In this document: positions 94-5,028 of the stretch, in pieces
Position numbering within the stretch: position 1 is the first letter of the stretch
How the letters are laid out: every line of letters begins with the position of its first letter
From: Rhodospirillaceae bacterium
GTDB lineage: Bacteria; Pseudomonadota; Alphaproteobacteria; Rhodospirillales_A; Casp-alpha2
Reading direction: 5' to 3'
DNA length: 5,028 bases
NCBI GenBank assembly: GCA_003488105.1
Contig: DNMS01000296.1
Location: forward strand, 1-5,028
Translations under genes and position numbers: made by a program
The notes under the pieces: model-generated
The model's database searches: none
What the model saw: only the letters and a program-made list of their open reading frames with translations
What the model was told of the DNA's origin: nothing

Positions 94-687
94 TCAGATT
101 TGCGCGGCAATGTCGTTCACGAAGGCCTTGAAGATATCGCGGGCGGCCGCGCTGAATCCCTTGACCAGGGCCGTGAGGCCGTCGTCCTTGGGTGTGAATT
201 CTCGGGTGTAGGTCTTGGCGATCAGGACCGTGCCGTCGTTGACCCGGCGCAACACCAGATTCATCTCGATGACGCCGGCGTTCGATCCGTCGATCACCCG
301 CTCCAGCTTCTCCACCCGGCCGGTGACCGCGAAATCGGGCCGTGCCCGCATTTCCGGCGTCACCACCGTGCCGGCAATGCCGGCGGCGCGCAGATAGCCG
401 ACCAGTTCTGCCTGCAACAGAACCCCCGGCGCTTCGTTCCAAAAATGATAGTGATAGGCCTGAAGCTGATGCGGGTTGTCGGCCCGGCGGTAGACGATGG
501 AACGCTGCGTCAATTCGCCGGCGGCAAGCAGGCGGTCGACCTCGAGCACACCCGCCATCAACCGCTTGCCCGGTGCTTCCGGCGGCGTGACCTCAAGCCG
601 GTAGAAATGATTTTCCGGCACCGTGGCGTTGCCGCCGCAAGCCGCCAGGACGGCAACCAGCGCCAGCGCGGATAATCGTCGGATCAT
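94..687 (-). CDS. ABC-type transport auxiliary lipoprotein (PqiC/ABC_trans_aux-like)
   Basis: Probable periplasmic or outer-membrane lipoprotein that works with the MCE transporter, in the family that includes E. coli PqiC. With the start at 687 it has 197 residues: basic n-region MIRR, hydrophobic core, and lipobox LAAC with lipidated C17. The +2 residue is Gly rather than Asp, which favours export to the outer membrane. Family features are FYRLEV (28-33), IVYRRADNPHQLQAYHYHFW (64-83) and the pattern of alternating strands and helices that follows. There are three in-frame ATGs at 699, 693 and 687. The one at 687 has GAGGA 5 nt upstream and gives a compact signal peptide. The one at 699 makes an ATGA overlap with the mlaD stop and is a reasonable alternative, adding four residues. 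Last gene of the operon. Confidence 0.88.
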   Translation of the reverse strand: MIRRLSALALVAVLAACGGNATVPENHFYRLEVTPPEAPGKRLMAGVLEVDRLLAAGELTQRSIVYRRADNPHQLQAYHYHFWNEAPGVLLQAELVGYLRAAGIAGTVVTPEMRARPDFAVTGRVEKLERVIDGSNAGVIEMNLVLRRVNDGTVLIAKTYTREFTPKDDGLTALVKGFSAAARDIFKAFVNDIAAQI

Positions 688-692
688 GACCA

Positions 693-697
693 TCCTC
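693..697 (-). promoter_or_regulatory. Ribosome binding site choosing ATG 687 of the lipoprotein gene
   Basis: GAGGA on the minus strand, 5 nt before the ATG at 687, lying across the mlaD stop codon (696-698). It favours the start at 687 over those at 693 and 699, although a weaker AGG site 4 nt before ATG 699 also exists. Confidence 0.5.
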
Positions 698-1694
698 ATT
701 TCGCCTGTGCCTCGTCGGTGACCGGCTTGCTGTTCAGCAGCAGGCCGGGGCTTTGCCTGATCTGGCGTGAGAATTCCAACATATTGCGCGACATGCCTTC
801 CAGGTTTTCGTTAATGGCGTCAATGCGACGGGCGACGCTTTCGACCACATAGCGGGCGTCCTTAATGGCGCGCCGCAGATCGCCGTCGTTCTTGCCGACC
901 ATGTCGGTCAGGGTCGTCATCAATTTGTCGCCGTTGGCCATGGCGGCGCGGGCGTCCTTGGTCGCACCGTTCAGGTTGGCGATCGTCTCCTCGATCAGCT
1001 TGCGATTCGCCGGGGTGGCGGCGGCCTTCAGTTCGCCGCTGAACGACTGCACGTCGGACGCGATCAGTTCCATATCGTCAATAACCACGGGAACGCGGCG
1101 GCTGACGTCGGTGACCAGCAGGGACGCCTCGTTGATCATTTGCTTGAGGTCGCCGGCCAAGGTCTCGCCATGATTGTCGAGAAGCTTGTTGGCGTTGTTC
1201 ACGGCGCGCTGAACGCTGGCCAGAAGGGGTTCGATGCTGTTGTCGCTGAGCCCGCCCAGCTTTTCCGCGACACCCGACACGACGGCGAACAGATCGCCGC
1301 CCTCGACCGCCGCGACTTCCGAGCCCGGCGTCAAGGCATCCGGGCTGGCGCCGGCGGAAATGCTCAGCGTCACCGCCGCAAGCAGGCCGGGTGCTGCAAT
1401 CGCCACCTTGCTGTCCTTGGGGATTTTCCAGCCTTCGTTGATCTCGAAATCGACCCGGAACCGCATGCCACCCTTGGACGGCTCCGGCGTCACCGTCTCG
1501 ACCTGACCGATGGGATAGCCTTCGTAGACGACCTGGGTTCCGAACTTCACGCCGGTGACGTTTGAATAATAGGCATGGTAGGCGTCCGTCGCCCCCGTGC
1601 GGCCTGTCAACACGGACAAAGCCACGATCAGCCCGGCGATCATGGCCAGAACGAAGGTGCCGACCAGCAGATAGTTTATCTTGTTGCTTCTCAC
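696..1694 (-). CDS. mlaD: MlaD-type MCE protein with long helical C-terminal region
   Basis: Inner-membrane-anchored substrate-binding ring subunit of the lipid transporter, facing the periplasm. The 332 residues start with a short cytoplasmic end and one transmembrane helix (about 8-29), followed by a single MCE domain (about 38-115) with GVKFGTQVVYEGYPIGQV (48-65) and the pore-loop-like APGLLAAVTLSI (101-112). The rest (about 140-310) is predicted by eye to be almost wholly helical, with heptad-like hydrophobic spacing, ending in PGLLLNSKPV, a common tail of long MlaD-like proteins. E. coli MlaD is only 183 residues, so this is a long variant. The start is GTG at 1694, chosen because it places the TM helix as in the family; the ribosome site (GGTGAG, 9 nt upstream) is weak. 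The TGA stop overlaps the ATG-rich start region of the next gene. Confidence 0.94.
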   Translation of the reverse strand: MRSNKINYLLVGTFVLAMIAGLIVALSVLTGRTGATDAYHAYYSNVTGVKFGTQVVYEGYPIGQVETVTPEPSKGGMRFRVDFEINEGWKIPKDSKVAIAAPGLLAAVTLSISAGASPDALTPGSEVAAVEGGDLFAVVSGVAEKLGGLSDNSIEPLLASVQRAVNNANKLLDNHGETLAGDLKQMINEASLLVTDVSRRVPVVIDDMELIASDVQSFSGELKAAATPANRKLIEETIANLNGATKDARAAMANGDKLMTTLTDMVGKNDGDLRRAIKDARYVVESVARRIDAINENLEGMSRNMLEFSRQIRQSPGLLLNSKPVTDEAQAK

Positions 1695-1719: not shown

Positions 1720-2550
1720 TCAAAGGGGTCGGTAGGCGGGCTGTTCGCCCGTCAGCCGGTTCAGGTAGGCATCCGCGTCCATGGTGTCGTCCTCGGCCAC
1801 CCGGTTCAACAGGTTCTGAATGCGTTGCGACGGGTCGGCGCGCAGTTCGTCCGGCGTGCCGATGAACAGAATTTCGCCCCGGTCCAGAATGGTGATGCGG
1901 TCGGCGATCTTGAACGCACTTTCCAGTTCGTGGGTGACCACGACCACGGTCATGCCCAAGGCGTCGCGCAGCAGCAGGATCAGATCGTCCAGCGCCGAGG
2001 CGACGACCGGATCCAGCCCCGCCGACGGTTCGTCGCAGAACAGGATCTTGGGATCCATGACGATGGCGCGGGCGAAAGCCGCGCGCTTGATCATGCCGCC
2101 GGACAGTTCCGACGGCATCAGGTTCTCGAACCCGCCCAGGCTGACCACTTCCAGCTTCATGCGGGCCATGATTTCCATGGTCTTACGGTCAAGCCCCGTA
2201 TGTTCGAACAGCGGCAACATGACGTTTTCGCCCACGGTCATGGACGAGAACAGGGCACCGCCCTGAAACGCCACGCCAAGCTTCTGGCGCAGTTCGACCA
2301 GTTCGACCCCCGACAGCTTGTCGATGTCCTGACCCAGGATGCGCATCGTCCCGGAGGTATGATGTTCCAACGCCATCAAGTGGCGCAAAAGCGTGCTTTT
2401 CCCGGACCCGGAGCCGCCCATGATGACCATGATTTCGTCGGCATGAACATCCATCGAGATGCCCTTGAGGATCATGCGATCACCGTAATGGGTGACCAGA
2501 TCGCGGACCTCGATCACGTTGCGGGGCGTCGATGCGGCGCTGTCGTTCAT
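1720..2550 (-). CDS. mlaF: MlaF-type ABC transporter ATP-binding protein
   Basis: Cytoplasmic ATPase that powers the MlaE permease. The 276 residues contain every nucleotide-binding element: Walker A GGSGSGKST (45-53), Q-loop Q96 in AFQGGALF, signature LSGGM (149-153) followed by the family-typical KRAAFARA, Walker B ILFCDEP (169-175), D-loop SAGLD (176-180) and switch H207. LSGGM in place of LSGGQ is normal for MlaF proteins. A C-terminal tail of about 35 residues after the ABC fold (about 240-276) resembles the extension that in E. coli MlaF reaches the partner subunit near MlaB, which fits the presence of a STAS partner. ATG start at 2550 with AGGGA 7 nt upstream, overlapping the mlaE stop codon. 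Catalytically intact; no oddities. Confidence 0.96.
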   Translation of the reverse strand: MNDSAASTPRNVIEVRDLVTHYGDRMILKGISMDVHADEIMVIMGGSGSGKSTLLRHLMALEHHTSGTMRILGQDIDKLSGVELVELRQKLGVAFQGGALFSSMTVGENVMLPLFEHTGLDRKTMEIMARMKLEVVSLGGFENLMPSELSGGMIKRAAFARAIVMDPKILFCDEPSAGLDPVVASALDDLILLLRDALGMTVVVVTHELESAFKIADRITILDRGEILFIGTPDELRADPSQRIQNLLNRVAEDDTMDADAYLNRLTGEQPAYRPL

Positions 2551-2557
2551 GGTCCCG

Positions 2558-2562
2558 TCCCT
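2558..2562 (-). promoter_or_regulatory. Ribosome binding site of mlaF
   Basis: AGGGA on the minus strand, 7 nt before the ATG at 2550. It overlaps the TAG stop of mlaE, so ribosomes finishing mlaE are placed on the mlaF start. Confidence 0.6.
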
Positions 2563-3376
2563 ACCGTGTGACCACGAAGGCGAACAGCATGTCCGTCACG
2601 ATGATCGCCGAAATGGACTGCACCACGGCGCGCGTCGTCGCCTTGCCCACGCCTTCGGCCCCGCCCTGGACCGAGGCCCCGTTGACCACGCCGATCACGG
2701 CGATGAGGATCGAGAAGATGACGCTTTTGCCGAGCCCGTGCATCAAGTCGTCGACGCTGAGCAGGTCGATGGTCTGATCCATGTAGGCGGCAAGCGAGAT
2801 GCCGAGGTCCAGGTTAACGTAGACCCCGGCGAAGAACAGACCGACGAAATCGGAAAACAACGTCAGCGCCGGAACCATGATCACCATCGCCACCATGGCC
2901 GGCACGACCAGGAAGCGCACCGGATTGATGCCCATGACGTAGAGGGCGTCGACTTCCTGATTGATCTTCATGGTGCCGATGCGCGCGGCCAGCGCCGATC
3001 CCGACCGCCCGGCGATGACGATGCCGGTGATCAGGGGCGCGAATTCACGCACAACGGAAAACGAAATACCGACGGTGACCCGGCTTTCCGCCCCGAAAAT
3101 ACGCAGCGTATGGATACCTTGAATCGCCAGCATCATGCCGATGGTGGCAGCCAGAAGGGCGATGATCGGCACGGCCTGAATGCCGATGGCCATGCATTGC
3201 TCGGCGATGGCGCCCAGGCGCACGGCCTGCTTTTCGCGCCGCCCGAAGATCAACCAATAGAAGCTTTCCACCACCATCATGGCGCCCAAGCCGATTTCCT
3301 CGATCCCGGCGACGGCGGCGCGGCCGACCTTTTCGGTCGTTACAACGATCGGGTTTCGGGCATCGGTTGGCGTCAC
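2561..3376 (-). CDS. mlaE: MlaE-family phospholipid ABC transporter permease
   Basis: Inner-membrane permease of an MCE-type lipid transporter, which in this family works as a dimer under an MlaD hexamer. The 271 residues match the usual roughly 260-residue MlaE; there is no fused N-terminal STAS domain. The family core is clear: REFAPLITGIVIAGRSGSA (110-128), then ARIGTMKINQEVDALYVMG (131-149), containing the cytoplasmic coupling helix with E141, then NPVRFLVVP (151-159). Hydrophobic segments lie at about 64-86, 112-124, 153-172, 173-188, 217-235 and 252-269. An amphipathic N-terminal stretch (about 25-45) matches the interfacial helix of the family. The start is GTG at 3376, with GGAG 9 nt upstream. 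It follows the STAS gene by 36 nt, the largest gap in the operon, and is 10 nt before the ATPase gene. Confidence 0.95.
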   Translation of the reverse strand: MTPTDARNPIVVTTEKVGRAAVAGIEEIGLGAMMVVESFYWLIFGRREKQAVRLGAIAEQCMAIGIQAVPIIALLAATIGMMLAIQGIHTLRIFGAESRVTVGISFSVVREFAPLITGIVIAGRSGSALAARIGTMKINQEVDALYVMGINPVRFLVVPAMVAMVIMVPALTLFSDFVGLFFAGVYVNLDLGISLAAYMDQTIDLLSVDDLMHGLGKSVIFSILIAVIGVVNGASVQGGAEGVGKATTRAVVQSISAIIVTDMLFAFVVTR

Positions 3377-3385
3377 GCGCGGATT

Positions 3386-3389
3386 CTCC
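3386..3389 (-). promoter_or_regulatory. Ribosome binding site of mlaE
   Basis: GGAG on the minus strand, 9 nt before the GTG at 3376. No ATG start in the same frame fits the family's N-terminus, so this site supports the GTG start. Confidence 0.6.
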
Positions 3390-3412
3390 GGTCGGCTGGG
3401 ACGAGGCAGGCT

Positions 3413-3733
3413 TTATACAGCGTCGTCGACGCTGGCGTGGATGGTGAACACGGCGTCGAGGCGGGCCAGCTTAAGCACCCGCAAGGCGCCTTCGCTGACC
3501 GCCGCGAGGGCCAAGGTTTGGCCGCCCTTCTTGGCGGTCTGCAAGGCTTCCACCAGCGAGGCCACGCCCGACGAATCGATATAGCCGACCTTGGCCAAAT
3601 CGACGACCACCGGCCTGCCGTGGCCAACGGTGGCCAACAGGGCTTCGCGCGCCTTCGGCGACGTTTGCAGATCGACGTCACCTTCGAAGGCGATCACGAC
3701 GGATTCGCCCACGTTTTTGACTTCGTGCTTCAT
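3413..3733 (-). CDS. STAS-domain protein: anti-sigma factor antagonist or MlaB-like transporter subunit
   Basis: A 106-residue protein made of one STAS domain, the normal size for SpoIIAA/RsbV proteins and close to E. coli MlaB. Visible hallmarks are the first strand with FEGDVDL (16-22), the strand VVVDLAKV (42-49), and YIDSSGVASL (51-60). By alignment with SpoIIAA, S55 (second Ser of DSSG) is the expected phosphorylated residue. No signal peptide or membrane segment is seen, so it is cytoplasmic. The start is the ATG at 3733, which has a strong GAGGGGA Shine-Dalgarno 6 nt upstream; an upstream TTG at 3748 lies across the preceding stop and lacks such a site. The gene sits between the phosphatase/kinase gene and mlaE. 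It is a probable substrate of the upstream protein. Whether its output is a sigma/anti-sigma switch or the MlaFE transporter cannot be decided from sequence. Confidence 0.92.
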   Translation of the reverse strand: MKHEVKNVGESVVIAFEGDVDLQTSPKAREALLATVGHGRPVVVDLAKVGYIDSSGVASLVEALQTAKKGGQTLALAAVSEGALRVLKLARLDAVFTIHASVDDAV

Positions 3734-3739
3734 GTCCAG

Positions 3740-3746
3740 TCCCCTC
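3740..3746 (-). promoter_or_regulatory. Ribosome binding site of the STAS gene
   Basis: GAGGGGA on the minus strand, 6 nt before the ATG at 3733. It overlaps the TGA stop of the phosphatase gene, suggesting translational coupling. It decides the start in favour of ATG 3733 over TTG 3748. Confidence 0.75.
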
Positions 3747-5028
3747 AAGATGCGCCGGCTTTTGTTTGAAGCCGCTTTCGCAGTTGTAACAGATTACCCA
3801 CCCCGGCGGGAGGCGTCACGAACTGAACGTCGTCCATGATCTCGTGGATCAAATGAACGCCGAGCCCGCCCGGCTTGATATCATCGAGATCGCGGCCCTT
3901 GACCTGGCCCGTATCGACGGGGGCCGCGAAATCCTGCAGTTCGACCACGAAGTCTTCGCCGTCGCGGCGCAGTTCCACCGCGATCTCACCGTCGGCGCGA
4001 CCGCCATAGGCATGACGCACCACGTTCTGGCAGGCTTCGTCCACGGCCAGGATGACCTGTTCGGTCATTTCGTCTTCGCAGGTCAGGAAATCCAAGGCCG
4101 CGCGCACGGCATGGCGGATCACGCGCAGCCGGTCCGCCCGCGCCGGCAAGCGCATGGACATGATCAATTCGGACCCGCCGGCCACCCGCTCGGCGGCGGC
4201 CAAGGCCGCCGGCCGCTCGACCGCCGTGTCGCTAACGCCCAACAGAGTGACGTCGTCGCGCATGCCGCCGTCGCCCGGCTTGATGACCCCGACCACGGCA
4301 TCCAGCCGCGCGCGCAGCGTCTGACCCCGGGTTTCCAAAAGAATGCGTTTGACGCCCTCGACGCCCAGTTCCGTACCGGCGTCGTCGACATAGCCTTCCG
4401 TTACCCCGTCGGTGAAGATCCACAGGCTGCCACCCTTCAGGTCGACCGCCGTTTCCGGGTAGCCGTCCTTGGTCGGCGGTTCGGCCAGAATGCCAAGCGG
4501 CGGGCCCTCGGCCTCGAAGGCCTGAAAATCGCCTTCTGGCGTCAGCAACAGGGCCGGTTCGTGCCCGGCGTTGGACAGCGTCACCACACCCGTGCGCGGA
4601 TCGTAGATGCCGCCGACCATGGTCACGAACATGCCGCGCGCCGCGGTTTCGCAAATCTCGCGGTTGACCAGGGCCAACAGACGGCCCGGCGACAAAATCG
4701 CCTTGCCCAGGCAGCGGTAGAGGCTGGCCGTCTTGGCCATCAGCAGGGCCGCGTTCACACCCTTGCCCGAGACGTCGCCCAGGCAAAAGCAAAGGCGCCC
4801 GTCCTCAAGCGGGAAGTGATCGAAGAAATCGCCGGAAACCTCGCGCGCGGGCTGGTTGACGCCGCCGATGGGCGCGTCATCGCCGGGCTGCCGGGGCAAC
4901 AGGGAGCTTTGAATTTCGCGGGCCAGTTCCAGTTCGCGCTTGATGCGTTCCTGTTCGAACAGCGCATCGGCCTGACGCGCGTTCAGGATCGCCAATGCCG
5001 CCGAAGCGGCCAGCGCTTCCAGAAAATG
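3745..5028 (-). CDS. SpoIIE/RsbU-type PP2C phosphatase fused to RsbW-type HATPase (5' end outside window)
   Basis: Two-headed partner-switch regulator. The phosphatase would dephosphorylate a STAS antagonist and the HATPase domain would phosphorylate or bind it. The frame is open to the window edge, so 427 residues are visible (residue 1 at base 5028). Residues 1-18 (FLEALAASAALAILNARQ) look like the last helix of a GAF domain. A charged coiled coil covers about 19-43. The PP2C domain (about 38-266) keeps its metal-binding motifs: SGDFFD (65-70), GDVSGKG (84-90), NAGHEPA (153-159), FTDGVTE (205-211) and RDDVT (257-261). The HATPase_c_2 domain (about 285-420) has an N-box with E331 and N335 (DEACQNVVRHAYG), a DFAAP variant of the G1 box at D366, and GGLGVHLI (387-394). 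The in-frame TTG at 4995 is inside the GAF-like helix and is not a credible start. The TGA stop is followed 11 nt later by the STAS gene. Family and domain calls are firm; kinase activity and substrate are inferred. Confidence 0.93.
   Translation of the reverse strand, partial: HFLEALAASAALAILNARQADALFEQERIKRELELAREIQSSLLPRQPGDDAPIGGVNQPAREVSGDFFDHFPLEDGRLCFCLGDVSGKGVNAALLMAKTASLYRCLGKAILSPGRLLALVNREICETAARGMFVTMVGGIYDPRTGVVTLSNAGHEPALLLTPEGDFQAFEAEGPPLGILAEPPTKDGYPETAVDLKGGSLWIFTDGVTEGYVDDAGTELGVEGVKRILLETRGQTLRARLDAVVGVIKPGDGGMRDDVTLLGVSDTAVERPAALAAAERVAGGSELIMSMRLPARADRLRVIRHAVRAALDFLTCEDEMTEQVILAVDEACQNVVRHAYGGRADGEIAVELRRDGEDFVVELQDFAAPVDTGQVKGRDLDDIKPGGLGVHLIHEIMDDVQFVTPPAGVGNLLQLRKRLQTKAGAS

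Follow-up and report, generated by a model that had tools for sequence, protein, structure and literature searches.

Can a partner-switch protein act directly on an envelope lipid transporter? The question is raised by a 5,028-nucleotide stretch of DNA (the window) from a Rhodospirillaceae bacterium (GenBank assembly GCA_003488105.1, contig DNMS01000296.1), in which the gene for a stand-alone STAS protein lies between a gene for a combined kinase/phosphatase and the genes for the permease MlaE and the ATPase MlaF. These genes belong to one six-gene operon on the minus strand, in the order GAF-PP2C-HATPase, STAS, mlaE, mlaF, mlaD and ABC_trans_aux lipoprotein. The operon probably encodes an Mpc/Mla-type envelope lipid transporter, of which the STAS subunit is a partner-switch protein controlling MlaF. 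An earlier, sequence-only reading had proposed a switchable STAS subunit similar to MlaB of E. coli. A free STAS in the place of MlaB, under the control of its neighbour, is supported by the synteny, by near-invariant acceptor and catalytic residues and by the contact residues of MlaF; other parts of that reading have changed, the STAS resembling RsbV, the transporter resembling Mpc and the predicted acceptor being S54. The genes of the operon are as follows.

3745-5028, minus strand: GAF - PP2C/SpoIIE phosphatase - HATPase_c_2 kinase, truncated (PF07228, 138.8 bits; PF13581, 93.4 bits)
3413-3733, minus strand: stand-alone STAS protein, 106 amino acids (PF01740, PF13466), with the DSSG motif at residues 53-56
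2561-3376, minus strand: MlaE-type permease, 271 amino acids, MlaE domain only, no STAS fusion (PF02405, 231.8 bits)
1720-2550, minus strand: MlaF-type ATPase, 276 amino acids, with a C-terminal extension
696-1694, minus strand: MlaD/MCE protein, 332 amino acids, with a long C-terminal part
94-699, minus strand: ABC_trans_aux (PqiC-like) lipoprotein, 201 amino acids

The gaps from the kinase/phosphatase gene to STAS, mlaE and mlaF are 11, 36 and 10 nt, exactly as first read, and the permease without STAS fusion beside a free STAS gene was likewise borne out. The gene calls within the originally proposed interval (2561-5028) hold, but mlaF lies outside it and the operon continues with mlaD and the lipoprotein gene; mlaF and mlaD are 25 nt apart, with a 4-nt overlap between mlaD and the lipoprotein gene. 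The kinase/phosphatase frame is open at the window end, its N terminus being cut and only the end of the GAF domain lying inside. A sister locus (L001 in genome G001), with proteins 95-99% identical to those of the window, was used as a stand-in for the wider neighbourhood. The full kinase/phosphatase protein encoded there has 599 amino acids, with GAF at 48-186, PP2C at 248-437 and HATPase at 466-590.

Conservation of the gene order

With the window MlaE as query, 65 loci were found in named genome records. Of the whole genomes sampled, MlaE orthologues were present in 14 of 385 from the class (at least 229 bits; next match 176 bits), 192 of 317 from the order (E up to 1e-60) and 6 of 398 from the phylum. 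The order contributed 30 rows with loci and 116 fetched rows, out of the 192 matching genomes, and further rows came from the class and phylum samples (16), from other retrieved loci and from the 65 named-record loci. After removal of copies, 168 distinct orthologues were obtained (phmmer, at least 225 bits; next non-orthologue 174.8 bits).

A survey of the phosphatase-STAS-mlaE order, suggested along with the sequence-only reading as a check, came out in its favour. The STAS gene was located directly upstream of mlaE in 162 of the 168 orthologues, indicating that this adjacency is more than chance; HATPase and STAS together preceded mlaE in 160, and PP2C was present as well in 155, being in a single open frame with HATPase in 130 of these 155. 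The distance from the STAS stop to the start of the MlaE domain was 17-145 nt, with a median of 52 (n = 162). A contig end cuts both rows with STAS only, and it cuts three of the five in which HATPase-STAS stands without PP2C; L042 and L312 have HATPase without PP2C despite room on the contig. In the converse search, the STAS alignment was run against the 385 class genomes with a cut of 147 bits. Such matches were detected in 14 genomes; 12 of these also have the MlaE orthologue, itself present in 14 (hypergeometric chance 4e-19, kinship ignored).

An MlaE tree was constructed from 90 rows, including 44 orthologues and two divergent HATPase-STAS operons. The STAS-fused MlaE rows (32) fall on one side of a branch supported 97/91, the canonical MlaE rows (12) on one side of a branch supported 100/100, and the 44 orthologues with the two divergent operons on a third side with support 100/99. 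The partner-switched state therefore follows one MlaE lineage. Two members nested within this clade, L036 (labelled Chromatiales) and L019 (labelled Zetaproteobacteria), reflect either transfer or binning error. In the divergent operons of G160 and G339, HATPase-STAS still precedes mlaE. These operons (L395 and L396, respectively) have the order HATPase-STAS-mlaE-mlaF-mlaD-aux and retain the switch genes; by eye, their MlaF appears catalytically broken, with the signature GG changed to AA, the Walker B Glu to Asp and the H-loop His lost.

The STAS protein and its putative contact with MlaF

In what follows, statements on published systems refer to excerpts of the papers cited. Within the DSSG motif, the residue aligned with Thr52 of E. 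coli MlaB is S54; the sequence-only reading had named S55 as the phospho-serine and was off by one. Each of the two serines is kept in 163 of the 164 STAS rows; the one exception is a gap. By homology, S54 is the predicted phospho-acceptor, the phosphorylation sites of RsbV and SpoIIAA being S56 and S58 (PMC11418112). Among the rows classed as fused STAS (n = 34, two of them mis-extracted), the acceptor site is occupied by Thr in 25, by Ser in 4 and by other residues in 5. On the side of the enzymes, the N-box Asn of HATPase is conserved in 160/160, the Glu four residues earlier in 159/160 and the Asp-Gly of PP2C in 156/156.

Judged from its sequence, the STAS is RsbV/SpoIIAA-like and outside the MlaB family. 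It scored 71.8 bits against TIGR00377 (anti-sigma factor antagonist; curated cut-off 53.45) and 24 bits against the MlaB family NF033618, below the curated cut-off of 90. In a single-chain fold (mean pLDDT, predicted local distance difference test, 96.6) it has a fifth strand (97-99) and a terminal helix (102-105), both of which are absent from the minimal STAS of MlaB (PMC7367683). It shares with MlaB a Ser/Thr at the Thr52 position, and, as with partner-switch STAS proteins, HATPase and PP2C domains that keep their catalytic residues are encoded next to it.

In E. coli, T52 and Q22 of MlaB contact K128 and T114 of MlaF, and Y261 and M127 of MlaF pack against L55, L59 and L90 of MlaB (PMC7784689). 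The orthologous MlaFs (n = 163) carry K128 in 163, T114 in 148, Met/Leu127 in 155, Tyr261 in 158 and Leu265 in 158. The C-terminal motif Y[LM]xRL was found in 153 of these 163 and in none of 33 fused rows, where K128 is present in 33, T114 in 13 and Met/Leu127 in 11; this fused set was defined by open-frame length alone and includes L069 and L076, which are canonical MlaE on the tree. Nine short rows represent canonical MlaFs for which no STAS neighbour was found. Eight of them have Glu/Lys127, no Thr114, no Tyr261 and nothing at position 265, and six of the eight retain K128. A STAS_2 profile search of 10 genomes gave no match beside canonical MlaE in any of the nine genomes that have one as a second MlaE; phmmer searches around canonical MlaEF, started from E. 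coli MlaB and from the STAS of the window, gave nothing, single sequences being a weak probe.

On the STAS side, the hydrophobic positions corresponding to L55, L59 and L90 of MlaB are kept as Val/Ile57 (163/164), Val/Ile/Leu61 (163/164) and Leu/Met92 (162/164), although a plain STAS may retain them for unrelated reasons. The Q22 position falls in a gapped stretch of the alignment and was left out of the comparison. Residues E62 and Q65 of the STAS were considered as specific for MlaF and dropped, since STAS modules free of the transporter have both too. Mean-field direct coupling analysis of STAS, HATPase, MlaE and MlaF, concatenated in 153 rows (effective number 91-119), left no protein pair clearly enriched, with observed/expected ratios of 0.35-1.41 in the top 50-500 couplings. 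Because even the structurally known MlaE-MlaF contact reached only 1.1-1.3, the analysis is underpowered, uninformative and thus neutral on the STAS-MlaF contact.

As in E. coli MlaFEDB (PMC7367683, PMC7784689, PMC5016091), the STAS here has its own gene with mlaE and mlaF and a Ser/Thr at the T52 position, and the MlaF contact residues are largely retained (PMC7784689). Unlike MlaFEDB, the operon has no mlaC, its RsbV-like STAS has the additional strand and helix, and a kinase/phosphatase gene adjoins the STAS gene (PMC7367683). By gene order and protein composition, the transporter is closer to Mpc, a Mla-Pqi chimeric system, than to canonical Mla: both share the order E-F-D-lipoprotein, a PqiC-like lipoprotein and a long MlaD (331 amino acids in Mpc, 332 here). 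In contrast, MpcE carries an N-terminal STAS fusion, where the present operon has a free STAS with its own kinase/phosphatase (PMC12436622).

The proposed switch and its alternatives

We infer phosphorylation of the STAS, its binding to MlaF, the direction of the switch and a signal as follows. Unphosphorylated STAS would dock on MlaF at its helical subdomain, the site used by MlaB in E. coli, and make the ATPase competent. The HATPase domain would phosphorylate S54 at the centre of the docking surface, whereupon the STAS would be released and transport would fall; dephosphorylation by the GAF-gated PP2C domain would restore it. The expected loss of contact follows the analogy of E. coli, where MlaB T52E weakens MlaF binding (PMC7367683). 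The acceptor serine may serve catalysis as well, because MlaB T52A still binds and yet loses ATPase activity (PMC5016091). Beyond the single operon, we lean slightly towards the view that a deep clade possesses a partner switch with an ABC ATPase as output, in which HATPase and MlaF would compete for one face of the STAS, and GAF-gated PP2C/HATPase would set lipid flux during the lifetime of complexes already assembled.

The components of this switch are known from other systems. The polypeptides HsbR, CrsR and SypE, which likewise combine PP2C and HATPase, control a single-domain STAS partner (HsbA, CrsA and SypA) through serine phosphorylation; theirs carry a REC domain, the one here GAF, and their targets, where known from the excerpts, are sigma/anti-sigma factors or a diguanylate cyclase, with no transporter among them (PMC6482189, PMC10120452). 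The systems RsbU-RsbW-RsbV and SpoIIE-SpoIIAB-SpoIIAA use the same kinds of domains and the same acceptor serine position, but their kinase and phosphatase are separate proteins and the target is a sigma factor (PMC11418112). Among the matches listed in the open-access literature, no PP2C/HATPase partner switch was linked to MlaE or MlaF. Phosphorylation of MlaB was proposed, and left untested, in two papers (PMC5016091, PMC7367683). In the operon described here, candidates for kinase, phosphatase and sensor are encoded and conserved next to the transporter, which makes phospho-control of MlaB testable with few proteins, and the division of MlaE into STAS-fused, canonical and partner-switched clades offers a natural comparison for the role of the STAS. 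The conserved arrangement in one large bacterial order suggests how a lipid pump could be toggled after its synthesis; if true, partner switching would reach beyond gene control and act directly on membrane lipid transport.

Several observations weigh against control of MlaF by the STAS. Six of the 168 orthologues have no STAS upstream. Two of these, L013 and L227, with 42 and 3 nt of upstream room, are too short to show any; L231 (474 nt), L019, L229 and L291 have room enough. In the genome of L229 (G225), STAS, GAF-PP2C and HATPase are placed tail-to-tail with mlaEFD-aux, outside its operon, an arrangement which we count in favour of the link between module and transporter. A HATPase-STAS pair lies about 8 kb off on the same contig in the genome of L291; in that of L019, other contigs carry a HATPase-STAS pair and a GAF-PP2C-STAS locus, and that of L231 has weak STAS matches only. 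On the tree, L078 falls with E. coli. Its MlaF has M127, K128, Y261, L265 and Ser114, and the surrounding 11 kb show no STAS; the MlaF contact set therefore tracks a separate STAS mostly, not strictly, as far as sequence comparison goes, and the residue argument is weakened a little. The MlaF extension is short, and its alignment to E. coli shifts with the alignment used; its helix (259-267) is weakly predicted in a single-chain fold (mean pLDDT in the 60s), and in L227 and L228 the C-terminal end reads GWL instead. Finally, G356 (L393) and G124 (L394) carry a complete GAF-PP2C-HATPase-STAS module with no orthologous mlaE found, which speaks against an obligatory link.

Such free modules would fit a switch that is an ordinary regulator of a sigma factor or other distant target, for instance an envelope-stress unit, merely co-transcribed with the transporter. 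The RsbV-like character of the STAS speaks for this, as does the capacity of such HATPase domains to bind sigma factors, seen in HsbR and CrsR (PMC6482189). We nevertheless regard it as unlikely: in 160 of 168 orthologues the STAS is flanked by the kinase gene and mlaE, the MlaE of this clade lacks the fused STAS that relatives have, and MlaF retains MlaB-contact residues that are mostly missing from eight of nine canonical MlaFs. No sigma factor was detected among the 10 neighbour frames of L001 scanned, no genome-wide search having been made. The sequence-only reading had named a module away from mla and beside a sigma factor as evidence to the contrary: separation from mlaE does occur, in two of the 14 class genomes with a close STAS homologue (385 sampled), but the three frames scanned beside these free modules contain no sigma factor. 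They encode a glutathione S-transferase and a chorismate mutase in G356 and an ABC ATPase of a different kind in G124.

The STAS could instead be a constitutive MlaB-like subunit, on which the kinase/phosphatase acts rarely, or not at all if it serves another STAS. In this direction point the conserved Thr/Ser of MlaB, for which the excerpts give no known kinase, the behaviour of E. coli T52A, which resembles a catalytic mutant and not a switch mutant (PMC5016091, PMC7367683), and two loci with two tandem STAS genes between HATPase and mlaE, L035 6330-7033 (the same DNA as L352) and L037 (the same DNA as L350). The near-invariant Ser, set against mainly Thr in the fused STAS, makes this improbable, as does G007. 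The STAS of this operon is the sole STAS_2 match in that 2.8-Mb metagenome-assembled genome, of completeness not stated, and HATPase_c_2 exceeds its cut-off there only once, so that, as far as the assembly shows, there is no second STAS_2 protein for the kinase. Least probable of all is a reverse flow, in which MlaF occupancy would titrate the STAS and report the transporter state to HATPase and on to an unknown effector: it fits the same anatomy, and HATPase is the output component of the canonical system, with which SypA is contrasted (PMC10120452), but no obvious effector is among the 10 frames scanned in L001, PP2C and HATPase mostly share one frame as in SypE and HsbR, and in the excerpts on those systems the STAS acts downstream, SypA being the downstream part and HsbA binding the outputs FlgM and HsbD.

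Related STAS and mla loci

Similar STAS proteins (100-105 bits) were observed in three genomes of 1.2-1.3 Mb without MlaE match, namely at L397 5466-6011 (G387, also L363), at L365 (G309) and, as the third, in L364 (G110). No HATPase match was found in the loci of these genomes. Two of these STAS, with neighbours read by eye, have a long acidic tail and lie beside zinc-ribbon-like and prepilin-peptidase-like genes; pilin-like genes are also near the STAS in L397. The STAS pair at L339 2408-2723 looks like a single STAS split by a frameshift, and at L400 474-1241 (G738) an orthologous mlaE has neither mlaF nor STAS adjoining.

The surroundings of L078 (L102, genome G012) are a canonical mlaF-mlaE-mlaD-mlaC region, its MlaF having the MlaB-contact residues and the extension; plus-strand frames beyond 6.3 kb, inspected by eye, contain no STAS. 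In L097 the contig ends after mlaC. Five of the 10 neighbour frames of L001 gave Pfam matches (PhaC, an EAL-GGDEF protein, a tRNA methyltransferase, a response regulator and GCS2), and the EAL-GGDEF gene (L001 3813-5735) is divergent and lies directly upstream of the operon.
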